A DNA stretch of 34,780 nucleotides from Methanolobus sp. (GTDB lineage Archaea; Halobacteriota; Methanosarcinia; Methanosarcinales; Methanosarcinaceae): contig JAASSR010000013.1 of assembly GCA_021767785.1 (NCBI GenBank), positions 1-34,780 of the forward strand, read 5' to 3'. The notes below the pieces were generated by a model. It was not told the origin of the DNA and did no database searches. It saw nothing but the letters and a program-made list of their open reading frames with translations. Each line of letters opens with the position of its first letter. Position 1 is the first letter of the stretch. Positions 3,403-24,799 of the stretch are shown piece after piece. The position numbers and the translations under genes are program-made.

Positions 3403-4557
3403 CTACTCAAAATAATTTATAGGTAGCTTGTTGCTATAACGGTCATTTCTCTTAAGATACACTTCATAATTTTCAGAATCAACGTCAAAAACAAAAATAT
3501 ATTCGACCTTAAAGTAAGCCCAGTATTCTGCAAAAGGATTTCGTGCATCACTTAGAATTACTGTCACATTTTCCCGGGAAGTTGAAACATTATATACAAT
3601 ATAGTCGATCTCTCCCGGAAGACTGGAATAATAAAGATCCTTTGCTCTGGTCAGATAACCTGAAAATTCATCTTTATCATCCGGATATATTGGGATAAAA
3701 GCCGCTTTTTCTATTCCTGACCAATAATCGGATGTCAATATCCTATAGTGTGTATCATTGTACTGGTAAGCGGAAAGAAATTTACCAGGAGATATGGGAT
3801 AAGAATCCTGATAACTTATATTGTACCCTTCACTCTCTTCAACAGAACCGATAAGCATGGCTTTGGTAAAAGGATTGAGGATACACCATAATGTAAAAAT
3901 TATCAAAAGGTTCCTGTAAAGAGATCTGTGTTTGCCTTCTGATACTCCGGCAAACCAGTTATTACTGTTTTTCAAGATTCCGGTGATTTTCCCCACTTTA
4001 CTGAAAATAATATTCTGAATAGAATAACTGGTATTATCCTTACCATTTTTCCTGTTTTCCGGACTATTTTTTTTATTTCTGTTAATTCTATTATTCTTTG
4101 CATGTTCTGCAAGAATGTAAAATATAGGTACAAATGAAATGATAGTGACAACAGGATCAAAAAAATCAATTGCACCAATGGTTGAAGCCTCTTTTACAAA
4201 AGGAAAGAAAGGTCTCATTTTCCAGCTTGTGACATAATCCAGATATATGTGACTGAATATCGCAACCCCTGAAGCAAATGTAAGAATTTTATTTTTTTCT
4301 CTGTACCATACATAGAAGGTCATCAGAAAAACAAAAATAACGGAATGCATGAATTCACGGTGAGCAAGCAGATAATAGAATATATTATATGTCTGATGAC
4401 TGAGATTCTGATCAATTGCCAGTAATAAGACATTTGCTATGAAATCAAGATCAGGGAGAATAGCCATGAAGGCAACTATCTTAACCTGCCTGCTGTTCAG
4501 CCCTGCAACTGACGCTATCAGAAGCCCTATACCCAGATGAGACAGGGTATTTACCAT
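3403..4557 (-). CDS. Membrane-bound metal-dependent hydrolase (YdjM/DUF457 type)
   Basis: A 384-residue integral membrane protein. The N-terminal 150 residues match the membrane-bound metal-dependent hydrolase family: histidine in NTLSHLGIGLL (residue 7), ILPDLDF near 33, HREFMHS near 66 and HIYLDYVTSW near 104, separated by hydrophobic helices. These His/Asp residues are the expected metal ligands. A lysine/asparagine-rich linker (about 165-185) follows, then one membrane segment near 220-236 and a C-terminal beta-rich domain ending in NRYSNKLPINYF. The C-terminal part is probably on the outer face. No substrate can be assigned. The ATG follows GGTGA closely. The gene stands alone. Confidence 0.75.
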   Translation of the reverse strand: MVNTLSHLGIGLLIASVAGLNSRQVKIVAFMAILPDLDFIANVLLLAIDQNLSHQTYNIFYYLLAHREFMHSVIFVFLMTFYVWYREKNKILTFASGVAIFSHIYLDYVTSWKMRPFFPFVKEASTIGAIDFFDPVVTIISFVPIFYILAEHAKNNRINRNKKNSPENRKNGKDNTSYSIQNIIFSKVGKITGILKNSNNWFAGVSEGKHRSLYRNLLIIFTLWCILNPFTKAMLIGSVEESEGYNISYQDSYPISPGKFLSAYQYNDTHYRILTSDYWSGIEKAAFIPIYPDDKDEFSGYLTRAKDLYYSSLPGEIDYIVYNVSTSRENVTVILSDARNPFAEYWAYFKVEYIFVFDVDSENYEVYLKRNDRYSNKLPINYFE

Positions 4558-4615
4558 TTCACCAGCCTCTCATCATTAAAGAAGATGTAACTATTACTTT
4601 TTATATTTCTGGAAT

Positions 4616-11944: not shown

Positions 11945-12268
11945 ATATTTTTTGAGAGCATTGAAGGTATCTTTATGGTATAATTACCCTGTCAGTATAA
12001 ACAATAATATAATATACTATAATAATATTAAGTTTTATATCGCTCATAAATATTTATCTATCGTGTAAACTGCACAAATGCAAATTTTGCTTTTCAGATT
12101 ATAACAGTTTGATATTAACCATTTGCCTGGTTCAAATTGAATAAACAATAAATTAATATATTATATTATACACTATATAATTACGTAGAAATACAATCCA
12201 TATTCTACTAATAAATAGTGCGATTTTTGCACAGATTATACAATACCAAATATGGGAGATATGAACAA
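11945..12268 (+). promoter_or_regulatory. Promoter and leader region of the chemotaxis operon
   Basis: A 324-base gene-free stretch of very AT-rich sequence. The best promoter candidate is CTATATAA at 12173-12180, which would give a transcription start near 12203 and a leader of about 65 bases before cheY. Across that start lies an inverted repeat, GTAGAAATA (12185-12193) against TATTCTAC (12201-12208), with one bulged A, a possible operator or hairpin. A second small dyad, GTGC / GCAC, is at 12218-12232. A Shine-Dalgarno GGGAGAT precedes the cheY ATG. I see no tRNA or small ORF here that I would defend. Confidence 0.5.
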
Positions 12269-12625
12269 ATGGTAAAAGTAATGATTGTGGATGATGCAGC
12301 CTTCATGCGAATGGTTATCAAAGACATATTAACAAAGAACGGCCATGAAGTCGTTGCCGAATGTGTCGATGGACTTGATGCCGTAAATAAATATCCTGAA
12401 GCTAACCCGGAACTTGTCTTCATGGATATTGTCATGCCAAATATGGAAGGGATTGATGCACTAAAAAAGATAATGGAGATGGACCCTGATGCAAAAGTGG
12501 TGATGTGTTCATCCATCGGACAACAATCTGTTGTCACTGATGCACTAAAAACAGGAGCGCTTGATTTTATAGTTAAACCGTTTGATGCAGCAAAGGTTCT
12601 GGAAGTAATTGGAAAAGTAATGTAA
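12269..12625 (+). CDS. cheY: Chemotaxis response regulator CheY
   Basis: Single-domain receiver of 118 residues that carries the phosphoryl signal from CheA to the motility output. The active site is complete: acidic pair Asp8-Asp9 in VMIVDDAAF, phospho-acceptor Asp53 in VFMDIVMP, the Thr/Ser switch position in VVMCSSIG (81-82) and Lys103 in IVKPF. The start is the ATG at 12269, 8 bases after GGGAGAT; upstream in-frame codons lack a ribosome site. It is the first gene of the operon, and cheB begins one base after its stop. Archaeal CheY normally acts on the archaellum through CheF, which is not in this window. Confidence 0.95.
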   Translation: MVKVMIVDDAAFMRMVIKDILTKNGHEVVAECVDGLDAVNKYPEANPELVFMDIVMPNMEGIDALKKIMEMDPDAKVVMCSSIGQQSVVTDALKTGALDFIVKPFDAAKVLEVIGKVM

Positions 12626-12626
12626 C

Positions 12627-13730
12627 ATGACTATCAATGCGCTTGTAGTCGATGACTCCGCTCTCATGCGTAAGGTTGTCTCGGACATACTAAAAGAAGA
12701 CCCTGATATTAGAGTTACAGCTGTTGCTAGGAACGGACTTGAAGCTGTTGAAAAGGTTGAGAAGTTCAAACCTGATGTAGTAACTCTGGATATCGAGATG
12801 CCTGTACTTGATGGACTGCATGCTCTTGGTTATATCATGAGCGAATGTCCGACACCAGTTGTCATGTTGACTGCGGTCGACTCAAGGTCAGCAGAAAGTA
12901 CATTAAATGCATTCGAGTATGGAGCAGTTGATTTCATACAGAAACCTTCCGGAAATATTAGTGTAAATATTGCGGACATTGCTATTGAGATCCGCAAAAA
13001 AGTAAAAATGGCTTCTAAAGTGGACCTGAAAAAACTTGGGTTCATGGAAGAACACGTGAAATCACGAGAAAATAAAGAAAATAATTTCCATACAAAACCT
13101 AAGAAGCAGACAAGCAAAAAGGCTCAACACCATGCAAATGGAAAGATCATTGCTATTGCTTCCTCTACGGGTGGCCCACGTGCACTTGAGCAGGTAATTC
13201 CTAAACTTCCAGGAAACCTGAAAGCTCCTGTTGTAATTGTCCAGCACATGCCTGCCGGATTTACCGCATCACTTGCACAAAGACTTGACGGACAATCACA
13301 ACTGAAAGTAACCGAGGCCAGAAATGGAGATATACTTCAAGCCGAACACGTATACCTTGCTCCCGGGAACTATCATATGGAGATAGTTTCTACTGAAAAG
13401 AATGGTGTCTATCATGAAGTAATTTCACTAAATCAAAAACCACGTGAACAGGGTGTCAGGCCCTGTGCAAACGTACTTTTCAGATCATTGGTACCCATCT
13501 ACGGATCAAACATCGTAGCTGCTGTTCTAACCGGTATGGGATCGGATGGTGCAGATGGTATTGAAGAAATTAAGACAGCAGGAGGAAAAGCAATTGCAGA
13601 GGATGAAAAATCCTGCGTTGTATACGGTATGCCAAAAGCAATTGTACAGAGAAAACTCGCTGATGTTGTTGTTCCCCTGAGGAAGGTATCAACTGAAATT
13701 GTACGTCTGCTGAATTCATCCGGTGATTGA
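12627..13730 (+). CDS. cheB: Receptor methylesterase/deamidase CheB
   Basis: A 367-residue two-domain enzyme that removes methyl groups from (and may deamidate) chemoreceptors for adaptation. The receiver domain (1-120) has Asp9-Asp10, phospho-acceptor Asp55 in VTLDIEMP and Lys106 in IQKPS. A lysine-rich linker (about 128-170) leads to the methylesterase domain with the full triad: Ser180 in IASSTGGP, His207 in VQHMPAGF, and Asp307 in GMGSDGADG. The linker is longer and more basic than usual. It sits directly behind cheY; cheA follows after 51 bases. Its activity should be opposed by the cheR gene of the same operon. Confidence 0.95.
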   Translation: MTINALVVDDSALMRKVVSDILKEDPDIRVTAVARNGLEAVEKVEKFKPDVVTLDIEMPVLDGLHALGYIMSECPTPVVMLTAVDSRSAESTLNAFEYGAVDFIQKPSGNISVNIADIAIEIRKKVKMASKVDLKKLGFMEEHVKSRENKENNFHTKPKKQTSKKAQHHANGKIIAIASSTGGPRALEQVIPKLPGNLKAPVVIVQHMPAGFTASLAQRLDGQSQLKVTEARNGDILQAEHVYLAPGNYHMEIVSTEKNGVYHEVISLNQKPREQGVRPCANVLFRSLVPIYGSNIVAAVLTGMGSDGADGIEEIKTAGGKAIAEDEKSCVVYGMPKAIVQRKLADVVVPLRKVSTEIVRLLNSSGD

Positions 13731-13781
13731 AATGTTAGTGGAAAAGATGAAAATAACGATGATCTCAGGGTTGGTGTGACC

Positions 13782-15827
13782 ATGGATATGTCAGAATATA
13801 AAGAAATATTTAAAGCAGAGTCAGATGAACATCTGCAGCAACTTAACGATTCATTACTGGGACTTGAACAAAATCCAAATGAGATGGAATACATTAATAC
13901 AATGTTCCGTTCGGCACATACCTTAAAGGGAATGTCAGCAACAATGGGATTCAGCACTATTTCTGAACTGACCCATGAAATGGAAAATCTCATGGATATG
14001 GTCAGAAAGTCACAGGTAGATGTGAGCAACGAACTCATAGATATTCTATTTGAATGCCTGGACACTCTCGAAGCACTTGTTGATACAGTCGACAGTGATG
14101 AAAAAGTGGATATCAGTCATCTTCAGGCTAATATGGCAAGTGCCATGGAAGGCACACTGTGCACGCAAGATATTAAAGAGACTGTTGATTCAAGTACCAA
14201 TATAATAAAAAATGAGATCATTAAAGAACTACCAGCTGAAAATGAAAGCGAAACAGAGATTAACGTAGAATTATCCGATAATGAAAAAAGGGCTGTAAAT
14301 GATGCATCTGCAGAAGGGAGCAGAGTCATATCTTTAAAAGTAATCCTGGATGAGTCATGCGTACTTAAATCAGCCCGTTCAACACTGGTTCTAATCAATA
14401 TCACAAAGATGGGAGAAATTATCAAATGTGAACCAAGTGAAGCCGAACTTGAAGATGAAAAGTTTGACCTTGAATTCACGGTTATATTTTCCACAAAATC
14501 CACTGATGAAGAAATAGTAGACACTATAAAGAAGATATCTGAAGTAAAAGATGTAATACCCACGACGGTTTCAGAGAGTAACGGAACCGAAAAGAAAGAG
14601 CAGGATAAAAAAGAAGCTGAAACTGAAGAGTCCAACAGCACAAATAAAACTGCTGTTAAAAGGCCGGATGCAGTCAAAAGTATACAGAGTGTCAGAGTGA
14701 ATATTGAAAGACTTGACAATCTGATGAACCTTGTGGGAGAACTGATCATTAATAAGATCAGACTGAATCAACTCGCTTCTGATCTAAAAGCAAAGGATCT
14801 TGACGAGTCACTTGCAAATCTGGATCGTCTTACGAATGAGATCCAGACAGAAGTCATGGAATCAAGAATGGTGCCTATTGACCAGATATTCAGCAGGTTC
14901 CCAAGAATGGTAAGAGATCTTGCAAAATCTGAAGGAAAACAGATCAATCTCATCATAGAGGGAAAAGAGATCGAACTGGACAGAACCGTTCTTGACGAAA
15001 TCGGCGATCCGCTTGTACACCTTCTTCGTAATGCCGTTGACCATGGAATAGAATCCCAGAAAGAACGTAAAGAACTGGGTAAACCAGTTGCAGGCCTTGT
15101 AAGGCTTTCCGCATCACGTCAAAGGAACAGTGTCCTCATCGAGGTGGAAGATGACGGTAAAGGAATGGACCCTGACAATCTCAGAGATATAGCTGTTAAG
15201 AAAGGAATTATCAGCAGGGAAGAAGTAGACAAACTTTCAGACACTGAAGCTCTCAATCTCATTTTCATGCCTGGCTTTAGCGGAGCTAAGGTCGTTACGG
15301 ACATCTCAGGCAGAGGTGTCGGAATGGATGCTGTTAAAACAAAGATTGAAGCACTTGGAGGAAGTGTAAAGATCAGTTCTGTTCAGGGACAGGGCAGCAT
15401 CATGAAACTCCAGCTACCTTTGACAGTAGCTATCATCCAGTCACTAATGGTTACAGTAGCCAATGAAACCTACGCTGTACCTCTGGGCAATGTGATCCGG
15501 GATGTAGGTATCAAGGCCAGTGACATAAAGACCATCGAAGGAAAAGAGGTAATACTTCTCAGAGGTGAGGTACTGCCATTATTGAGATTACACAATGTAC
15601 TTGATTGTCCCACTGAACAGGAAGAAAAAGAGAACCTTATCGTTGTTGTGGTCGAAAGAATGGGAAGCAACATCGGACTTGTAGTTGACGAACTCCTGGG
15701 ACAGCAAGAAGTGATCATAAAATCACTGGACAACAAACTTTTGAAAAACCTGAAGGGATTTGCTGGTGCAACTATTCTTGGGGATGGAAGTGTCGCACTT
15801 ATCCTGGATATTGCTACATTGATCTAA
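13782..15827 (+). CDS. cheA: Chemotaxis histidine kinase CheA
   Basis: Full-length CheA of about 681 residues. P1 phosphotransfer domain with His46 in RSAHTLKG; two acidic linkers around a P2-like domain (about 180-265, RVISLKVILDESCVLKSARS); P3 dimerisation (about 295-360, RLDNLMNLVGELIINK); P4 ATPase with N-box LLRNAVDHGIE, G1 box VEDDGKGMD and G2 box DISGRGVGMDAV; and P5 CheW-like domain (about 545-681). It autophosphorylates in response to receptors and passes phosphate to CheY and CheB. I prefer the ATG at 13782, because GGTTGGTG lies just upstream; a GTG two codons earlier is possible. P5 normally docks CheW, which must be encoded elsewhere. Confidence 0.95.
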   Translation: MDMSEYKEIFKAESDEHLQQLNDSLLGLEQNPNEMEYINTMFRSAHTLKGMSATMGFSTISELTHEMENLMDMVRKSQVDVSNELIDILFECLDTLEALVDTVDSDEKVDISHLQANMASAMEGTLCTQDIKETVDSSTNIIKNEIIKELPAENESETEINVELSDNEKRAVNDASAEGSRVISLKVILDESCVLKSARSTLVLINITKMGEIIKCEPSEAELEDEKFDLEFTVIFSTKSTDEEIVDTIKKISEVKDVIPTTVSESNGTEKKEQDKKEAETEESNSTNKTAVKRPDAVKSIQSVRVNIERLDNLMNLVGELIINKIRLNQLASDLKAKDLDESLANLDRLTNEIQTEVMESRMVPIDQIFSRFPRMVRDLAKSEGKQINLIIEGKEIELDRTVLDEIGDPLVHLLRNAVDHGIESQKERKELGKPVAGLVRLSASRQRNSVLIEVEDDGKGMDPDNLRDIAVKKGIISREEVDKLSDTEALNLIFMPGFSGAKVVTDISGRGVGMDAVKTKIEALGGSVKISSVQGQGSIMKLQLPLTVAIIQSLMVTVANETYAVPLGNVIRDVGIKASDIKTIEGKEVILLRGEVLPLLRLHNVLDCPTEQEEKENLIVVVVERMGSNIGLVVDELLGQQEVIIKSLDNKLLKNLKGFAGATILGDGSVALILDIATLI

Positions 15828-15843
15828 ATATGAGGGAAATAAT

Positions 15844-16461
15844 ATGGCAGAAATGGACGAAATGGCAAAAGGAGCATTTCAGGAAGCCGGAAACATTGGA
15901 ATGGGACATCTGGCCACATCTCTTTCAAAAATGGTTAGCAGAGATGTTAAGATCGACATACCGGTTGTTGAAATGCTAAGTCTTGATGACATAATCGCAA
16001 AGAGTGACGAAGATGGAAAAAACAAGAGTGTAGTGGGAATCCACCTACATATATCAGGTGATGTTAACGGCGGTACATTAATATTACTTCCAAAATTCTC
16101 AGCGTTTTCCTTTTCGGATCTCCTGATGAAAAAACCAATAGGTACAACAAACAAAATAGAAGAGACTCAGGTAAAAAAACTAAGGGAAATGGGAATCAAT
16201 CTCTGTAGTGCTTATATGAAAGTTGTTAATGAGTTTCTGGGTATCAACCTTAATGTAGGAGAACCAAGCATCCAGGTTAACATGGAGGGCGTTGGTGATT
16301 TCATTCAGGAGGAAATAGGAGATCTTGCTGATCAGTTCATTGTAGTTAAAGGCGAATGTCGCATCCCTTCAACGAATTCAAAAAATGAATTCAACATGCT
16401 TTTCGAACCCGGGGCCACGGATGTAATAATGGCAGCTATTATGAAAAAGATGATGGGATAA
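15844..16461 (+). CDS. cheC: CheC-family protein, copy 1
   Basis: A 205-residue member of the CheC/CheX/FliY phosphatase family, which dephosphorylates CheY-P and can bind CheD. The family signature (D/S)-x3-E-x2-N-x22-P occurs twice in typical CheC. Here site 1 keeps Glu14, Asn17 and Pro40, though the leading D/S is Gly10. Site 2 keeps Glu115 and Pro141, but the Asn position is Ile118, so that site should be inactive. A ribosome site (GAGGGAA) precedes the ATG, 16 bases after cheA. Its stop is one base before the FtsA-like gene, so the two are translationally coupled. Confidence 0.88.
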   Translation: MAEMDEMAKGAFQEAGNIGMGHLATSLSKMVSRDVKIDIPVVEMLSLDDIIAKSDEDGKNKSVVGIHLHISGDVNGGTLILLPKFSAFSFSDLLMKKPIGTTNKIEETQVKKLREMGINLCSAYMKVVNEFLGINLNVGEPSIQVNMEGVGDFIQEEIGDLADQFIVVKGECRIPSTNSKNEFNMLFEPGATDVIMAAIMKKMMG

Positions 16462-16462
16462 G

Positions 16463-18583
16463 ATGGATACTGCCCATTTTGCTCTTGATATCGGAACAAG
16501 GACCGTTGTAGGGCTCATTACAGAGTGTGAACACCTGAAGATTAAAGCTGCCTGCATACATGAGCATAATGAAAGAAGTATGCAGGACGGCCAGATACAT
16601 GATGTCGAAAAAGTAGCTAAAACGGTCGATGAGGTCAGGAAAGAACTTGAGGAAAAGATCGGGCAAAAGTTATCAAAGGTATCCGTTGCAGTTGCAGGTA
16701 GAGCACTAAAAACATCCAGGGTCAAACTTTCAGTAGAACTACCTTACAAAGAGATCACAAAAGAAGATATATCAGAGCTTGAATTTGAGGCTGTTGCACA
16801 TGCAGGGAATGAAGTAGATATTGACCAGGGTTTTAATTGTGTAGGCTATTCTGTGGTGAACTATGAACTGGACGGCCAGATAATCTCAAATGTGATCGGC
16901 CAGAAAGGAAGTTCAGTCTCAATAGAAGTTCTTGCTACATTCCTTCCCGATGCAGTAATAAGTAGCATGTTTGCTGTCCTTGACAGATGCGGACTGGAAG
17001 CTTCCAGTGTTACGCTTGAACCTATTGCTGCATTGAATGTTGCCATACCGACAGACATGCGCAAACTTAACATAGCTCTTGTGGATGTAGGGGCAGGTAC
17101 ATCTGATATAGCCATTACTGATAACGGAACTGTTATCGGATATGGAATGGTTCCTGAGGCCGGTGACGAAATAACCGATTTTATATGTGACTATTATCTT
17201 GTGGATTTCAAAAAAGGCGAGGGAATTAAAAAAGCCCTCACAACAGAAGATAAGATAGAGCTTGAAGACATCTTTGGAGTAAGTTCAGAAGTCCCCGTTG
17301 AACAGATAATTTCAGAGATAGAAGATGAAGTGGATAAACTGGCACAACATATTGCCGAAGAGATTAAAAAAATCAACAATAAAACTCCACGTGCTATTGC
17401 TCTTGTAGGAGGAGGTTCACAGACTGCAGGACTGAGAGAGCATCTTTCAAAGCACCTTGAAATTCCGATTCAGAGAATTGGATCCCGGCTACCAAAACAG
17501 GTAGAGGATTTTACAGATACTACCGGTGAGGTTACCGGTGCGGATATGATAACTCCTCTTGGAATTGCAAGCATGGCTACCTTTAATGATGGAATTGAAT
17601 TCATTGATGTCACTGTGAACGGCTCAGAAATGCATCTAATGGACATCAATGGTCTGTCTGTAATGGATACCCTGGTTGCAGCAAAGGTTAAGAAACTCTA
17701 TCCTCGTCCCGGAATGGCATTGACCTTAACTGTAAATTCCAGACCCCTTACAATACCGGGAAAGATGGGGGAGCATTCAAAGATAATCCTTAACGGTAAA
17801 GAAGCAAGCCTTGGGGATCCTGTTAAAAAAGGTTCTGTTATAGAATTTAAAGCTCCTGTAGATGGTAAAGATGCAGATCTGAAAATTGAGGAACTGATTA
17901 AAGAGCAGGATATACCTGCAATTTTCAAAGTCAATGTCAATGGAAAAGAGTTAGAATTAGAACCTTATGTCAGTATTAATGGTAAAACAGCATCTTTTCA
18001 AGACAGCATTCCCGACAGAGCTGACGTTATAATAAGAAATCCTAGCCTTGAGAATATCCTGAAAATAGAATATGGAACTGATATCGATGAAAAGATAACT
18101 CTTACAATTAACGACCAGATACGTCATTTTGACAGAATAGATTATAATCTCAGTCTGAACGGAGAGATTATAGACAGATCCGAATTCTCTACGCGAAGCA
18201 TTCAGGATAATGACATTATCATTGTGGAAAAGACCGAGTTTGAATACAGAATTGAGAATATAGTTGGCAGACCTGAAGAAGGGAAAAAGGTCTCTGTAAT
18301 GCTAAATGGTGACAAAGTCACATTCAAAGGGTCAAAATCACAGATTACCCTTAACGGAAAAAAAGCATCTTTTTCAGACAGGGTAAGTGACGGGGACAAT
18401 ATAGAATATAAATCCGGATTAGAAGCAGAACCTATTCTCTCAGATCTTTTTGAATTCATGGATATTAAGAAAGAGGAACTTGTTGGCAAGAGGATGAGAC
18501 TTCTTGTTAATAATGTTCCTGCCAGATTTACAACCCCTTTGAGGGATGGAAACAATGTGACTATAGAATTTGCAGAGGGATAA
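16463..18583 (+). CDS. FtsA-like actin-family ATPase with tandem C-terminal repeats
   Basis: A 706-residue protein in two parts. Residues 1 to about 375 form an actin-like ATPase of the FtsA/PilM type. Phosphate loop 1 is DIGTRTVVGLI (9-19), the FtsA-type 1C subdomain is about 72-160 (VSVAVAGRALKTSRV), phosphate loop 2 is VDVGAGTSDIAI (207-218), and the adenosine motif is ALVGGGSQTAGL (313-324); all are intact. Residues 380-706 hold four to five beta-rich repeats. There is no C-terminal amphipathic membrane helix as in bacterial FtsA. The ATG is one base after the cheC1 stop, and cheR starts one base after its own stop, so it is an integral chemotaxis-operon gene. The role is inferred only: a filament or scaffold linked to the chemosensory system. 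Similar long FtsA-domain proteins occur in Firmicutes as I recall. Confidence 0.85.
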   Translation: MDTAHFALDIGTRTVVGLITECEHLKIKAACIHEHNERSMQDGQIHDVEKVAKTVDEVRKELEEKIGQKLSKVSVAVAGRALKTSRVKLSVELPYKEITKEDISELEFEAVAHAGNEVDIDQGFNCVGYSVVNYELDGQIISNVIGQKGSSVSIEVLATFLPDAVISSMFAVLDRCGLEASSVTLEPIAALNVAIPTDMRKLNIALVDVGAGTSDIAITDNGTVIGYGMVPEAGDEITDFICDYYLVDFKKGEGIKKALTTEDKIELEDIFGVSSEVPVEQIISEIEDEVDKLAQHIAEEIKKINNKTPRAIALVGGGSQTAGLREHLSKHLEIPIQRIGSRLPKQVEDFTDTTGEVTGADMITPLGIASMATFNDGIEFIDVTVNGSEMHLMDINGLSVMDTLVAAKVKKLYPRPGMALTLTVNSRPLTIPGKMGEHSKIILNGKEASLGDPVKKGSVIEFKAPVDGKDADLKIEELIKEQDIPAIFKVNVNGKELELEPYVSINGKTASFQDSIPDRADVIIRNPSLENILKIEYGTDIDEKITLTINDQIRHFDRIDYNLSLNGEIIDRSEFSTRSIQDNDIIIVEKTEFEYRIENIVGRPEEGKKVSVMLNGDKVTFKGSKSQITLNGKKASFSDRVSDGDNIEYKSGLEAEPILSDLFEFMDIKKEELVGKRMRLLVNNVPARFTTPLRDGNNVTIEFAEG
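17726..18577 (+). repeat. Tandem beta-grasp-like repeats within the FtsA-like protein
   Basis: Protein-level repeats at residues 422-705. Each unit has a strand pair containing VNG-like turns, followed by a segment of the form LNGK-x-AS-x-x-D-x-x-x-x-G-D-x-I-E-F. Examples are ILNGKEASLGDPVKKGSVIE (442), SINGKTASFQDSIPDRADVI (504), SLNGEIID with IQDNDIIIVE (564-589), TLNGKKASFSDRVSDGDNIE (629) and a final half unit ending LRDGNNVTIEF. The units are about 58-69 residues apart. The fold is inferred as ubiquitin/beta-grasp-like. Confidence 0.7.
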
Positions 18584-18584
18584 C

Positions 18585-19406
18585 ATGCTTAAAACCGCTC
18601 AAAAAAAGGATGAAGACTATGAAATGCTTAAAAAAATGATCCATAGGAAACTTGATTTTAACAGTGATCAGTACAAGGATTCTCATTTTAAAAGAAGGAT
18701 AGATGTAAGGTTGCGTGCAACTAACGTCAGATCATACAAAGAATATGTAAAAATTCTTCAGAATGACAATAGTGAATATCCAAAACTTATGGAAACACTA
18801 ACAGTGAACGTCACCAATTTTTTCAGGAATCCCGAAGTCTATGAAATTGTGGAAAATGAAGTATTACCTGCAATAATAAAATCAAAGAATAGCGGATTGA
18901 GATCCATACGTATCTGGAGTGCCGGATGTTCCATCGGAGTCGAAGCTTACTCCATTGCAATGTTGCTGGATTATCTTCTTGGCAGACGTCTAAGCGAGTA
19001 CAATATTAAAATTACCGGGACTGATATTGATAAAGAGAGTCTTCTTAAAGCACAAAAAGGTGTTTATTCAGATGCCGAAATGAAAGATGTCAGGCCTGCA
19101 TTCCTTAAAAAATACTTCACAAAAGAAGATGGTAATTATATAATCTCCGAGGAACTGAAAAAAATTACACAGTTCAAAAAACAGGATCTCATATCAGGTC
19201 CTAAGATGAGCGGTTTTGATGCAGTGTTCTGTAGAAATGTCACCATTTATTTCCAGAAGGAGTTGCAGGAACAACTTTACATGGACTTCTATAACGCACT
19301 TGGAAAGGACGGCTTCTTTGTAATGGGTAAAACAGAGACTCTTATAGGTCCTTCCAAAGATCTTTTCAAGCCATATAATTCCAAGGAGAGAATTTACCAG
19401 AAATGA
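18585..19406 (+). CDS. cheR: Chemoreceptor methyltransferase CheR
   Basis: A 273-residue S-adenosylmethionine-dependent glutamate methyltransferase acting on chemoreceptors. It has the N-terminal helical CheR domain (FKRRIDVRLRATN), the signature TVNVTNFFRNPEVYE near 78-92, the SAM-binding motif IWSAGCSIGVEAYSIAM, the acidic ribose-binding region ITGTDIDKESL, and the hallmark FCRNVTIYF near 214. In the SAM motif the common GEEPYS reads GVEAYS, a mild divergence that keeps the second Glu. The ATG at 18585 follows GAGGGAT, which lies inside the last codons of the FtsA-like gene. It should balance CheB. Confidence 0.93.
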   Translation: MLKTAQKKDEDYEMLKKMIHRKLDFNSDQYKDSHFKRRIDVRLRATNVRSYKEYVKILQNDNSEYPKLMETLTVNVTNFFRNPEVYEIVENEVLPAIIKSKNSGLRSIRIWSAGCSIGVEAYSIAMLLDYLLGRRLSEYNIKITGTDIDKESLLKAQKGVYSDAEMKDVRPAFLKKYFTKEDGNYIISEELKKITQFKKQDLISGPKMSGFDAVFCRNVTIYFQKELQEQLYMDFYNALGKDGFFVMGKTETLIGPSKDLFKPYNSKERIYQK

Positions 19407-19461
19407 CTATAGACTTTTTCTGGAAGTCATGGCATCTAAAATACAAAACAGGAGGCTACAC

Positions 19462-20076
19462 ATGAAACACAAAATCTCAAGTCTGAGTGAATTACAGACC
19501 AGTGCATTGCGGGAAATAGTTAATATCGGTGTAGGAAATGCTGTTACCTCACTGTCAAAAATGATATCTACCGAGGTAAAAATAGAAGTTCCTGCACTCA
19601 AAGTTGAATTAATAGAAAAAGTTCCTGAGGTTGCCGGAGGGGCGGATACAATAGTATCTGGCGTCATAATGCATGTTAGCGGAGATATCGAAGGATACAT
19701 TATGATGCTGCTGCCTGAAGAAGCGGCCCGTACCATATGCAACATAATTTCCAGTGAAGAAGAGGTAGATATACTGAGCCCTTTTAACCAGTCACTCATA
19801 GAAGAAGTAGGTCATATCCTTGCAGGGTCATATGTAAGTTCATTGTCGGATTTCCTGGGGCTGGATATAAAAATATCCACACCTATGCAGACATTTGACA
19901 TGCTTGGCGCCATCATTGATCAGATACTTATAGAAATGAGTAAAAAGGCAGAATATGCGCTTCTTTTTGATACATTATTCATAATCCAGGGTAACAGGAC
20001 AAATGGTCTTTTCCTCACAATGTTCGATCCGGATTCCATGGATACCATACTTGAACGTATCGATAAAATGATATGA
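19462..20076 (+). CDS. cheC: CheC-family protein, copy 2
   Basis: A 204-residue CheC-family protein. Site 1 is a perfect signature: Ser14, Glu18, Asn21 and Pro44 at the expected spacing. Site 2 keeps Ser, Glu and Pro at the right spacing (SLIEEVGH ... STP), but Asn is replaced by His, so phosphatase activity there is doubtful. The start is fixed by AGGAGG six bases before the ATG at 19462; a slightly longer frame beginning at 19429 would place that site inside the gene. The stop overlaps an alternative start of copy 3. Confidence 0.88.
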   Translation: MKHKISSLSELQTSALREIVNIGVGNAVTSLSKMISTEVKIEVPALKVELIEKVPEVAGGADTIVSGVIMHVSGDIEGYIMMLLPEEAARTICNIISSEEEVDILSPFNQSLIEEVGHILAGSYVSSLSDFLGLDIKISTPMQTFDMLGAIIDQILIEMSKKAEYALLFDTLFIIQGNRTNGLFLTMFDPDSMDTILERIDKMI

Positions 20077-20090
20077 AAGGAGAGAGCTCA

Positions 20091-20702
20091 ATGAACATAG
20101 TACTTGAAAAATTTTACTATGACGCACTTAATGAAGTAGGAAACATAGGAATGGGAAATGCAACAACTGCCCTGTCTCAACTTGTGGACAAATCAATAAA
20201 GGTCAGTAGTTCTTCTCTCACACTGCTTAAAGCCAGAGATCTTAATGAAAATATAAATTCGGACAGGATAGGTGCGATAGTAAGAGTGATGGGGGACCTG
20301 AACGGAGGATTCATCCTCATGATCGAGCAGGATAATTCCGATATTCTTGCCGAAATGCTACTGAAAGAAAATCCTGGTGAAGATAATTACATGAAACGAT
20401 CTGCTTTTATTGAAGTGGCCAACATTCTTGCCGGAAGCTATTATAATGCTCTTTCAAAATTCCTGAATCTCTCTATTATTCCATCTATACCTGCAATATC
20501 CGAAGGAAACTCCGATGAGATATTTACAAAGGCAAGAAAAGTTACCAGCGGAAGAATGGATCATGTTTTCAGTCTAACGACACTTTTTGAGATCAAAGGA
20601 GAAGATCAGCACCGTAGCCTGAGCGGTGATATGTTCATGCTTCTGGATTCTACCTCTTTACAATCGATACTTGACAGGATAGAAGAAATGCGTACAAGAT
20701 AA
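20091..20702 (+). CDS. cheC: CheC-family protein, copy 3
   Basis: A 203-residue CheC-family protein and the only copy in which the Glu and Asn of both signatures are kept: site 1 Asp11, Glu15, Asn18 (but Ser41 instead of Pro), and site 2 SAFIEVAN followed at the right distance by Pro. On this basis it is the best candidate for a fully active CheY-P phosphatase. I start it at the ATG at 20091, preceded by AGGAGAG; an ATG at 20073 overlapping the previous stop is the alternative. cheD follows two bases after its stop, matching the known CheC-CheD partnership. Confidence 0.88.
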   Translation: MNIVLEKFYYDALNEVGNIGMGNATTALSQLVDKSIKVSSSSLTLLKARDLNENINSDRIGAIVRVMGDLNGGFILMIEQDNSDILAEMLLKENPGEDNYMKRSAFIEVANILAGSYYNALSKFLNLSIIPSIPAISEGNSDEIFTKARKVTSGRMDHVFSLTTLFEIKGEDQHRSLSGDMFMLLDSTSLQSILDRIEEMRTR

Positions 20703-20704
20703 AT

Positions 20705-21178
20705 ATGATCATAGTTGGAATGGCAGACAGTGCTGTGGCAAAAAAACCTGCAAAGATCACTACCCTTGGATTAGGATCATGTGTGGGTATTTCTCTCTAT
20801 GATAAAAGCACAGGTGTCGGTGGAATAGTGCATATAATGCTCCCAAGCAGAGAGCAGGCAAGATCTAAAGACAATATTGCCAAATTTGCGGATACAGGCA
20901 TCCCTTTACTTCTGGACACCATGGTAGATGAAGGTGCCTACAAACACCGAACCACTGCCAAAATAGCAGGTGGTGCAAGTATGTTCTCATTCAATTCACA
21001 AACCCAGCTTAATATTGGTGAAAGAAATATTGCGGCTACAAAAAGAACACTCAAGGAACTAAAAATACCAATTGCAGCAGAAGATACGGGAAAGAATTAC
21101 GGGCGTACAATAATACTTGACACGGAAAACGGGGAACTTACAGTTAAGAGTGCACTCAAAGGTATAAAAATATATTAA
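20705..21178 (+). CDS. cheD: Chemoreceptor glutamine deamidase CheD
   Basis: A 157-residue CheD, which deamidates receptor glutamines and is regulated by CheC. The catalytic set is present with the spacing known from Thermotoga CheD: Thr20 and Cys26 in TLGLGSC, and His43 in GGIVHIMLP. The C-terminal part keeps AKIAGGASMF, IGERNIAATKRTL and the GKNYGRTI segment used for substrate and CheC contact. It lies directly behind the most intact CheC copy, and together they imply a CheC-CheD-CheYp adaptation loop of the Bacillus type. Confidence 0.94.
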   Translation: MIIVGMADSAVAKKPAKITTLGLGSCVGISLYDKSTGVGGIVHIMLPSREQARSKDNIAKFADTGIPLLLDTMVDEGAYKHRTTAKIAGGASMFSFNSQTQLNIGERNIAATKRTLKELKIPIAAEDTGKNYGRTIILDTENGELTVKSALKGIKIY

Positions 21179-21227
21179 TAATTAAAAGAGAATAATATAT
21201 AGAAACTAAAATATAGGTGACTTCAGG

Positions 21228-22253
21228 ATGTTAACTCCGGATATAACAATAATACACATACTTTTCATTTCCATATCATTGGCATGTGGATTGGCAGCTA
21301 TATATTTCTGGGTGAAGGTTTATTTTGAGACTCAGAAAGGATCAATTGCATGGCTGCTCCTTGCGCTAACATCCATATTTCTGATAACAACAGCAATATT
21401 CCCTTCCATCGCGGTGAGCTTACAGAATACGAATATAACTGAAATGATATTTTTATTTCTGGGATTCTGGAGTGCTGTCTACACAAGTATTTTTGCTGCT
21501 GCCGGTTTTTTGATGTTTCAGGCATTCAGGACGATACCCCGAGATAAACTTGGAGACTTCCTTATAGAAGGAATGGTATTTACAAAGCCAGTCAGGTCTG
21601 AAGATGAAATGGAAGATGTGCCGGAAGTTGACCAGATGTCAACACTTCTCAGCAGGTCCACTTTGATCGAATATACTCCAAAAACCAGATATGAAGATTC
21701 TGTAATCGAGGTATGTCTGCGGCTTTATGGAGAAATGGTAAATACAGTTCTGGTATCCACACAGCCCCGTACTGCAATGTACAGGGAGAAGATAGGAGAT
21801 CTGATGGATATCGGTGCTATGAAATTCATAGAAATATCCTCGACATGTGAACAGGTGAACAATGAGGAAGGCATCATAAAACTGCCTACAGAAGAACTTG
21901 ATAAGTTCTTCGAGCTCACCAGCAAACTTCCCGAAGGGTGCGCAATTGTCTTTGAACCAGTCACTCAGCTACTGCTAACGGAAGGAGAGAAAAAGACCTA
22001 TGAATTCATGTCTGAAATGGCAGAGAGATTTGCTGCCAATGAATTACTTCTGGTAGGACTGATCAATAAAGATGCACATGATGAAAAAATCATCTCCAGA
22101 TTCGAAGGACTTTTCCTGAATCTTGCTGAAGAAGAAGGAGCAAAGATACGTGTGTTCAAGGGTGGAAAAGAAGAATACATTAGGTTTTACATGGGTGATA
22201 AATTCTTCATGGAAGAGGATGTAAGTGTTGAACTTGAAGAGAAGAAGGAATGA
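21228..22253 (+). CDS. Membrane protein with cytoplasmic DUF835/RecA-like domain, chemotaxis operon
   Basis: A 341-residue protein with three hydrophobic helices in the first 100 residues (about 8-28, 42-62, 77-99) followed by a cytoplasmic domain. The region 165-330 alternates strands and helices (VIEVCLRLYGEMVNTVLVST, GCAIVFEPVTQLLL, NELLLVGLINKDAH, KIRVFKGGKEEYIRF) in a pattern like the archaeal DUF835/KaiC-like alpha/beta domains, but no Walker A motif is visible. AGGTGA precedes the ATG. It sits between cheD and cheC copy 4 and overlaps the latter's upstream start, so it belongs to the operon. It could be a membrane input or anchoring component. The family assignment is tentative. Confidence 0.65.
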   Translation: MLTPDITIIHILFISISLACGLAAIYFWVKVYFETQKGSIAWLLLALTSIFLITTAIFPSIAVSLQNTNITEMIFLFLGFWSAVYTSIFAAAGFLMFQAFRTIPRDKLGDFLIEGMVFTKPVRSEDEMEDVPEVDQMSTLLSRSTLIEYTPKTRYEDSVIEVCLRLYGEMVNTVLVSTQPRTAMYREKIGDLMDIGAMKFIEISSTCEQVNNEEGIIKLPTEELDKFFELTSKLPEGCAIVFEPVTQLLLTEGEKKTYEFMSEMAERFAANELLLVGLINKDAHDEKIISRFEGLFLNLAEEEGAKIRVFKGGKEEYIRFYMGDKFFMEEDVSVELEEKKE

Positions 22254-22258
22254 ACTAT

Positions 22259-22885
22259 ATGAGCCGAGAACTGGATAATTTTTCAATTGATGCTTTTAAA
22301 GAAATAGGAAGCATAGGAATGGGAAATGCGACTACATCACTTTCTCTTTTGATAGAAAAACGAGTCCAGTTGAATCTATCTGATGCCAGGCTTTTTGAGC
22401 CGTCAACTATCATAGATACAATACCTGAATCCATAACTATGACGAGTATAATGATTCCTGTATACGGAGATATAAAAGGCCTTACCATACTTCTTTTCGA
22501 ATTCGGGAATGCGGTATATCTAAGTGATCTGTTATTGGAGAATATTGCTCACGATGAAGATCCGAGCATCTATGAATCTGCACTTCTCGAAACAGGCAAC
22601 ATAATAGCAGGATCTTACCTCAACTCATTGGCATCGTTCCTGGACCTCAAAATTCTACACTCTGTACCTGATATAAGTATCGGTACTATTGTGGATATTC
22701 TTGACAGGGGATTGAACATGATAGATAATAATCCGGAAGGGATCCTCAACATCGAAACAATGTTCATGGTATATTCTTCAGAAAAGGAAGTCGGGGCTGG
22801 TACGATCTATGGAGACATGTTCCTTCTTCTGGATTCAGGATCACTGGATAAACTACAGGATTCTATTCGGAGAATATTAGTATGA
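22259..22885 (+). CDS. cheC: CheC-family protein, copy 4
   Basis: A 208-residue CheC-family protein. Site 1 has Asp11 and Glu15, but Ser18 instead of Asn and Ser41 instead of Pro, so it looks dead. Site 2 is perfect (SALLETGN followed after 22 residues by Pro). The pattern is the reverse of copies 1 and 2. The ATG at 22259 has AAGGA nine bases upstream; an ATG at 22250 overlaps the previous stop but leaves no room for a ribosome site. It is the last recognisable chemotaxis gene of the operon. Confidence 0.87.
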   Translation: MSRELDNFSIDAFKEIGSIGMGNATTSLSLLIEKRVQLNLSDARLFEPSTIIDTIPESITMTSIMIPVYGDIKGLTILLFEFGNAVYLSDLLLENIAHDEDPSIYESALLETGNIIAGSYLNSLASFLDLKILHSVPDISIGTIVDILDRGLNMIDNNPEGILNIETMFMVYSSEKEVGAGTIYGDMFLLLDSGSLDKLQDSIRRILV

Positions 22886-23556: not shown

Positions 23557-24183
23557 ATGATGGACATTGCAATATACTCGCTTGTTGATGATATGGTCAG
23601 CAAAGCCGGAACAGAAGGTGTCGTGGAATATTGGCTTCGCGTAGGTGAGAGCTATGCTGAAAGGATGGGGAAAGAAGCATACGTGGGATGGCCCGCTTTT
23701 AATGTGGCAATGAAGGACGGAAGGACATCCCTGACAGTTGAAGGAGCTGTCAGTGTCCAGACTGATCTGGCCATCACTGACAAGGACGGAGATGTCATTG
23801 GTTATGTATATGCACTAAAAACATGCCCCATATCACCGACAATGGAAAGATACATCTCCAGGATCGGACCTATTCCCGATTCAGATACTGACGTTGCAGA
23901 TAGCTATAACAACCGCATAAGAGATTCCGCAGTTTCAAATTATTGCATAACACACCAGAAATTCAGAGAAGTTGCAGCAAATAACATCACAGTTGCTAAA
24001 GAGGCACTTGAATGCCTTCAACTTGCAAATAAAGGAATGACAGGTGAAGTAAAGATGGTACCTGAGAACCTTGCCAGGATAAACGTTGATGAAAGGCATA
24101 TTAAAAGTATACTACGTAATGCATCCTGTGTTTTTGCACTTATTGTAAAAGGTAAGAGTGCCGGAGAAGAAATAATCGATTAA
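23557..24183 (+). CDS. Uncharacterised Cys/His protein, tandem paralog A
   Basis: A 208-residue soluble protein, paralogous to the next gene. Shared features include an N-terminal helix pair (DDMVSKAGTEGVVEYW), a central strand pair ending KTCP (Cys90), SNYCITHQKFRE (Cys130, His133), and a final NASCVFALIV (Cys191). The layout (CP, then a middle Cys, then C-x-F near the end) resembles V4R and L-2-amino-thiazoline-4-carboxylate hydrolase-like proteins, some of which bind metal through such cysteines. This is a motif-level resemblance only. It has its own promoter and a good Shine-Dalgarno site. Confidence 0.7.
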   Translation: MMDIAIYSLVDDMVSKAGTEGVVEYWLRVGESYAERMGKEAYVGWPAFNVAMKDGRTSLTVEGAVSVQTDLAITDKDGDVIGYVYALKTCPISPTMERYISRIGPIPDSDTDVADSYNNRIRDSAVSNYCITHQKFREVAANNITVAKEALECLQLANKGMTGEVKMVPENLARINVDERHIKSILRNASCVFALIVKGKSAGEEIID

Positions 24184-24193
24184 TGGTGATCAT

Positions 24194-24799
24194 ATGGCTG
24201 AAAATATAGAGTCAAACCCTTTTGTTGATGTATCAGTATTTCTCTTCTTCGAGGATATCTCTGATAAGCAGGGAGTAGAAGGATTTACAAATTATATGGT
24301 TGGACAGGCAGAATCACTTGCAAAGTCCGTTCCTGAGGAAGAATATCAGACATGGGACGATTTTGCAAATGCTGTTACTAATGGTGAATCTGTCCTTTCA
24401 TCATTCGAACACATCGGACAGATAAGTGAGTACGGTTTTGTTACCAAGGTATGTCCATTCTCAAAAGCGATCAGAGAATATATCAAGCGCATAGGGAATT
24501 TCAATCCTGTACATATGGAAGCAACCGATCACTATAATCACACAATCCAGCCTTCAGCTGCACACAGTGCATGTATGATGCACCAGACATACCGCAAGGA
24601 AGTAGCAAAGAGAATAAAGATAGCTGGAAAACCACTTCAATATGCACAGATAGCAGCAAAGGCATATACCGGAAAGATTGCACTACCTCCTGAATCATGG
24701 AAAAAGGTATTACTGGAAAAAGCCGGAATTACGGAAACCCAGGGATTCATGGAAATGAGAGAGAATAGTTGCCTGTATTTGCTTTATGTTGAAGATTAA
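24194..24799 (+). CDS. Uncharacterised Cys/His protein, tandem paralog B
   Basis: A 201-residue soluble paralog of the preceding gene, starting 10 bases after it with a GGTGATC ribosome site. The conserved positions line up exactly: Cys87 in KVCPFS, Cys127 and His130 in SACMMHQTYRK (40 residues after the first Cys, as in paralog A), and Cys193 in NSCLYLLYV. Overall identity looks modest, so the duplication is old, yet the Cys/His set is kept; these residues are likely functional. The two products may form a heteromer. An AT-rich segment and a long inverted repeat follow. Confidence 0.7.
   Translation: MAENIESNPFVDVSVFLFFEDISDKQGVEGFTNYMVGQAESLAKSVPEEEYQTWDDFANAVTNGESVLSSFEHIGQISEYGFVTKVCPFSKAIREYIKRIGNFNPVHMEATDHYNHTIQPSAAHSACMMHQTYRKEVAKRIKIAGKPLQYAQIAAKAYTGKIALPPESWKKVLLEKAGITETQGFMEMRENSCLYLLYVED

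Follow-up and report, generated by a model that had tools for sequence, protein, structure and literature searches.

An actin-like protein with a beta-grasp tail encoded within the chemotaxis operon of Methanolobus, and its relatives in bacteria

What does a gene for an actin-like protein do in the middle of an archaeal chemotaxis operon? This question is raised by a locus in Methanolobus sp. (contig JAASSR010000013.1), of which we analyzed a stretch of 34,780 nucleotides, referred to here as the window. ORF reading of the window revealed an intact 706-aa ORF with zero internal stops at 16463-18583 of the plus strand, between cheC1 and cheR, which we call the actin–beta-grasp gene after the two parts of its product.

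The gene and its operon

Pfam confirmed CheY, CheB, CheA, CheC, CheR, and CheD around the gene, and the operon runs in the order cheY, cheB, cheA, cheC1, actin–beta-grasp gene, cheR, cheC2, cheC3, cheD, a gene for a 341-aa protein, cheC4, and further, unassigned ORFs. An FpoO gene in the window is consistent with a methanogen. A preliminary description of the locus had reported that a single base separates the gene from either neighbor, and we found the same spacing: cheC1 ends at 16461 and the likely start of cheR, judged by genome comparison, is the ATG at 18585, the TTG at 18570 that was called mechanically being an unlikely start. The features of the operon are as follows.

12218..15827, plus strand: cheY, cheB, and cheA (Pfam)
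15844..16461, plus strand: cheC1, directly upstream of the actin–beta-grasp gene (Pfam CheC)
16463..18583, plus strand: 706-aa predicted actin-like ATPase with a beta-grasp tail (intact ORF; ortholog in 24/27 Methanolobus genomes; dN/dS of ~0.11)
18585..19406, plus strand: cheR, directly downstream of the actin–beta-grasp gene (Pfam CheR and CheR_N; ATG by genome comparison)
19429..22885, plus strand: cheC2, cheC3, cheD, the 341-aa protein (N-terminal half hydrophobic), and cheC4 (Pfam; order kept in Methanolobus)

This single operon holds four CheC paralogs (15844-16461, 19429-20076, 20073-20702, and 22250-22885) versus one CheD. The 341-aa protein (21228-22253) combines its hydrophobic N-terminal half with a soluble C-terminal half; it matches no family, and the fetched operon regions of two sister genera (G030 and G031) hold no match to it. 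Promoter and terminator scans and a repeat search of the locus yielded nothing useful.

An actin domain with intact ATP-site motifs

Residues 1 to 375 score above the cut-offs of Pfam PilM_2, FtsA, and MreB_Mbl. An AlphaFold2 model of the protein built from 15 sequences (pLDDT of 81) was compared with the PDB using Foldseek, which placed FtsA at the top (E of ~1e-27, TM-score of up to 0.76 over FtsA), followed by PilM (up to 0.78 over PilM), EutJ, and MreB. The model has an actin fold in which subdomain 1C replaces 1B, and FtsA and PilM rank above MreB, so that the FtsA/PilM-type actin fold expected for these residues in the preliminary description is borne out. The 1C subdomain noted there is likewise supported by the model and by Foldseek, together with a weak, below-cut-off SHS2_FTSA match to residues 81 to 156.

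16463..17587, plus strand: FtsA/PilM-type actin fold, residues 1 to 375 (Pfam; AlphaFold2 and Foldseek; dN/dS of 0.08)
16487..16504, plus strand: phosphate-1 motif DIGTRT (essentially invariant in the genus, conserved in the family)
16706..16942, plus strand: 1C subdomain, approximate, residues ~82 to 160 (weak SHS2_FTSA match; strands and helices of the model)
17018..17023, plus strand: E186-P187, at the alignment position of MreB's EP motif (36/36 family members; absent from the true FtsA compared)
17081..17113, plus strand: phosphate-2 motif VDVGAGTSDIA (conserved in genus and family)
17405..17431, plus strand: adenosine motif VGGGSQTAG (conserved in genus and family)

The three ATP motifs, described earlier as intact, are indeed all present in order, nearly invariant in 19 Methanolobus orthologs, and conserved across the wider family. 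We infer from MreB-type actins that E186-P187 may have a catalytic role; the pair is found in all 36 family members compared and corresponds to the EP motif of MreB, which makes ATP hydrolysis plausible. Judged by its motifs, the actin domain is thus predicted to bind ATP and probably to hydrolyze it.

A tail of beta-grasp units

Residues 376 to 706, nearly half of the protein, lay outside the preliminary reading. Modeled separately with AlphaFold2, they gave a pLDDT of 85, with a pTM of 0.53 that leaves the arrangement of the units uncertain. Foldseek matched this model to tandem ubiquitin chains and to single ThiS/TGS domains, and Pfam ThiS matches the end of the protein, as it does in 14 of 15 members. 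The protein terminates in a beta-grasp strand, and a C-terminal amphipathic membrane helix is absent.

17588..18580, plus strand: tail of ~4 to 5 beta-grasp (ubiquitin/ThiS-like) units, residues 376 to 706 (AlphaFold2, Foldseek, Pfam ThiS)
18425..18580, plus strand: last beta-grasp unit, residues 655 to 706, the most constrained part of the tail (dN/dS of 0.058; constrained in the G018 remnant as well, see below)

Neither FtsA nor PilM

The earlier assignment to an FtsA-family ATPase is right in its fold and wrong in its family. The protein scores 114.6 bits with the NCBIfam model for FtsA (TIGR01174), whose cut-off is 175.85, and 55.5 bits with the one for PilM (TIGR01175), whose cut-off is 133; of the models for PilM, Pfam PilM_2 alone is matched above its cut-off. 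FtsA (PDB 7q6f and 1e4f) shares the actin fold with its 1C subdomain, but the Methanolobus protein lacks the membrane helix and instead carries a 330-residue tail and the E-P motif that FtsA does not have. PilM of type IV pili (PDB 2ych and 5eou) is also alike in fold, and bacterial homologs of our protein sometimes carry this annotation; the beta-grasp tail, however, sets the protein apart from PilM, as does its score. Moreover, its neighbors are che genes and not pilN, pilO, or pilP, and no PilN-type partner was seen within the che operon. Since curated models and architecture disagree with both assignments, we regard the protein as neither a division FtsA nor a PilM.

Its relatives are long proteins of Thermotogota and Bacillota, with which homology extends over the full length, tail included, at 35 to 39% identity. 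Architecture is shared within this group, as are the motifs RxMxDGQIHD, TLEPIAA, and GAGTSDIA. Based on sequence, the actin–beta-grasp protein is a member of a bacterial family without a Pfam or NCBIfam name, seen in Thermotogota and Bacillota, and our literature search found no paper describing this family.

Distribution, origin, and selection

Full-length copies occur in 24 of the 27 Methanolobus genomes, the window's own included, and named Methanolobus genomes hold the nearest orthologs of the window's copy. At every Methanolobus copy for which flanks were read, the order is cheA-cheC1-[actin–beta-grasp gene]-cheR, a constancy that argues against a chance arrangement. The one CheA-bearing system per Methanolobus genome is the operon holding the gene. 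Within the genus, dN/dS of intact copies is ~0.11 overall, 0.08 in the actin part, and 0.058 in the last beta-grasp unit; the gene is under purifying selection in Methanolobus. Pfam-confirmed neighbors, conserved order, and selection together uphold the earlier view of a stable member of a methanogen chemotaxis operon.

Across the archaeal phylum, the gene is present in 1 of 136 genera (393 genomes), namely, Methanolobus. A single scan of the genome collection with narrow search patterns returned Methanolobus and one Thermotogaceae metagenome-assembled genome (MAG). Among Thermotogota, 79 of 103 genomes are carriers, with some copies fragmentary or interrupted. The Bacillota, sampled via plasmid records only, contributed two homologs, one from Anoxybacillus (38% identity, full length, annotated as PilM) and one from Acetoanaerobium.

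In a tree to which the two Bacillota proteins were added, Methanolobus, Thermotogota, and Bacillota form separate groups, with Methanolobus joining Bacillota (96/98), although both Bacillota rows are long. An origin inside Thermotogota was rejected: it had been suggested by the nesting of Methanolobus in an initial tree, in which a single, very long FtsA branch served as the root. Both sister genera carry cheA-cheC1-cheR without the gene, i.e., an empty site. The simplest history would be a single transfer from a bacterium into the stem lineage of Methanolobus, with insertion between cheC1 and cheR; going by the tree, the donor is best described as a bacterium, perhaps a member of the Bacillota. 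Overall, the history of acquisition and the sequence-based assignment of the Methanolobus gene to the family are established or strongly indicated.

Losses within Methanolobus

Genomes that deviate from the common pattern are informative. In G012, CheA, cheC1, and the actin–beta-grasp gene are all absent and archaellum FlaD/E is retained, a combination that suggests a tie of the gene to the Che system and not to the archaellum. G020, in contrast, kept the che operon and lost the gene, which is therefore dispensable. We considered whether G020 represents an ancestral empty site and rejected this, given that it is nested inside Methanolobus in a tree of CheA and CheC1 (98/93) and that its cheC1-cheR gap holds what is likely left of the 3' end of the gene. 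The score of this relic was reached in 10 of 2,000 shuffles; by itself the relic is weak, because it overlaps a Shine-Dalgarno-like stretch.

A third genome, G018, carries an in-frame remnant of 216 aa (L045, 6001-6651) that joins about residues 1 to 104 to residues 599 to 706. Its first 100 residues have a dN/dS of 0.17, versus ~0.05 in intact pairs, and its last 52 residues one of 0.075, versus ~0.07; this is one short comparison in a MAG, and the ribosome-binding site of cheR overlaps the extreme end. With the end still constrained and the start relaxed, the remnant hints at a continuing role of the last beta-grasp unit in G018.

Co-occurrence with CheA in Thermotogota

The preliminary description had proposed a role in chemotaxis on the basis of the operon, and it had regarded homologs lying mostly outside chemotaxis clusters as evidence against its proposal. 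Because the bacterial homologs lie outside such clusters, half of this objection applies. In Methanolobus, residence in the cluster and gene order are conserved, whereas the bacterial copies examined stand next to mutS2 or other genes and none in a che cluster; among the Thermotogota, the gene comes after mutS2 in 14 of 16 fetched regions.

Independent support for a chemotaxis role came, however, from the near-perfect co-occurrence of the gene with CheA. The presence of the two agrees in 99 of 103 Thermotogota genomes (77 with both and 22 with neither). Two have the gene only (G074 and G133) and two CheA only (G142, where the CheA match is weak, and G158); as genome completeness is not given, these four mismatches may be assembly gaps. 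Fisher's exact test gave a P value of 5e-18, which ignores kinship. On an RpoB tree of the Thermotogota, we counted ~3 independent joint changes of gene and CheA and none to the contrary, too few events for a kinship-corrected test to reach significance.

In Thermotogota, CheA is expected alongside flagella. The two may be lost together, and Thermotogota alone therefore cannot separate chemotaxis from flagella. Methanolobus, in turn, combines a single che operon with an archaellum, which would make the Che system the factor shared by both lineages. Since the archaellum is not related to bacterial flagella, this is also the simpler choice. The near-exact match with the presence of chemotaxis in Thermotogota thus suggests that the family may be an unrecognized part of the chemotaxis system.

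What the protein may do

Taken together, the chemotaxis link of the family is moderately supported, and we consider it slightly more probable than its negation that the protein serves, in Methanolobus and in bacteria, as a nonessential accessory of the chemosensory machinery. A possible course of events is that a gene of a bacterial family was gained once by the Methanolobus ancestor, landed between cheC1 and cheR, and was held there by selection. Given its motifs, the actin domain would bind and probably hydrolyze ATP, and the beta-grasp tail might dock partner proteins, for which we propose Che proteins. ATP-dependent assembly or switching could then support the organization or placement of the receptor/CheA/CheC assembly. 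That the protein acts specifically as a scaffold or filament is a tentative suggestion, with the odds clearly against it. It is tempting to speculate further, though this is rather doubtful, that the family is an unrecognized cytoskeletal element of chemosensory systems in Thermotogota, some Bacillota, and, by transfer, one archaeon; bearing ubiquitin-like arms, such an actin-like polymer would organize or position CheA/receptor arrays regardless of the type of motor.

Alternatively, the protein might serve a motor or pilus and not the array, as a cytoplasmic coupler that resembles PilM, acts on the archaellum, the flagellum, or a type IV pilus, and is merely coexpressed with che genes. PilM is among its closest structures and is the label of the Anoxybacillus homolog, and the expected pairing of CheA with flagella in Thermotogota, like the FlaD/E genes carried by all Methanolobus, would fit this as well; yet the score with the PilM model stays below its cut-off, and G012 keeps its archaellum genes without the actin–beta-grasp gene and the che operon, so that we find such coupling unlikely. 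The position after mutS2 in bacteria, the small number of independent co-losses (~3), and the tolerated loss in the che-bearing G020 could instead betray an unrelated bacterial housekeeping gene that uses the che promoter, the pattern in Thermotogota then going back to a small number of shared losses among reduced or nonmotile clades. Such hitchhiking is hard to reconcile with an operon place perfectly retained across Methanolobus, with the joint loss in G012, and with the 99 concordant Thermotogota genomes free of any contrary independent pair, and we give it a small probability.

EutJ appears among both the structural and the NCBIfam matches, and the EP motif is common to ATP-hydrolyzing members and absent from the FtsA compared, as would suit a further alternative, in which the protein forms no filaments but uses ATP, in the manner of Hsp70 or EutJ, to assemble or remodel Che complexes as a chaperone or reactivating factor. 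Against this improbable role stand the structural ranking, which FtsA and PilM lead, and a 1C subdomain like theirs; nor is a substrate known. A cell-division FtsA acting with FtsZ, finally, could claim TIGR01174 as the best NCBIfam E value, but we rejected this identity on the sub-cut-off score, the lack of a C-terminal membrane helix, and the extra beta-grasp tail; the gene is moreover dispensable in G020, and one Thermotogota genome with a family protein encodes FtsA separately, next to an FtsZ-like ORF, which leaves this function with hardly any probability.

Should the reading as a chemosensory accessory hold, the chemosensory machinery of two domains of life would employ an actin-like ATPase missing from lists of Che components, and proteins now labeled FtsA or PilM would receive new labels. 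Methanolobus offers a natural experiment: a gene of bacterial origin resides in an archaeal che operon, one species has lost it, and another keeps only its two ends, so that actin part and tail can be tested separately for their roles.

Relation to known systems

Partial precedents exist. The magnetosome actin MamK is reported to interact with the chemoreceptor Amb0994 (cited in PMC6056624) and so shows that a chemoreceptor can have an actin-like filament as its partner, in a different system. MamK belongs to another actin branch, has no beta-grasp tail, and is linked to magnetotaxis. In the archaeon Haloferax, the ATPases MinD4 and MinD2 determine where chemosensory arrays and archaella are placed (PMC11588486). 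These are Walker-type ATPases of the ParA/MinD kind, without the actin fold, and again part of a different system.

CheF, the adaptor that connects CheY with the archaellum in archaea, gave no full-length match in the 27 Methanolobus genomes, with partial matches of 19 to 28 bits in 5 of them. The model may miss a CheF that has diverged too far, or else another adaptor is used. The actin–beta-grasp protein as a simple substitute for CheF was rejected, as G030 and G031, which lack it, also have no detected CheF.

Two further observations concern other genes. At 23557-24799, the window contains two adjoining ORFs (208 and 201 aa) that match no family, are highly conserved across Methanolobus (~89 to 97% identity), and also come after the che genes in G030 and G031. 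In addition, the same genome encodes a second actin-like protein (L002; G000:C139, ~4176-4613) of ~366 aa with a weak FtsA match, adjoining a 456-aa ORF that resembles a coiled coil.
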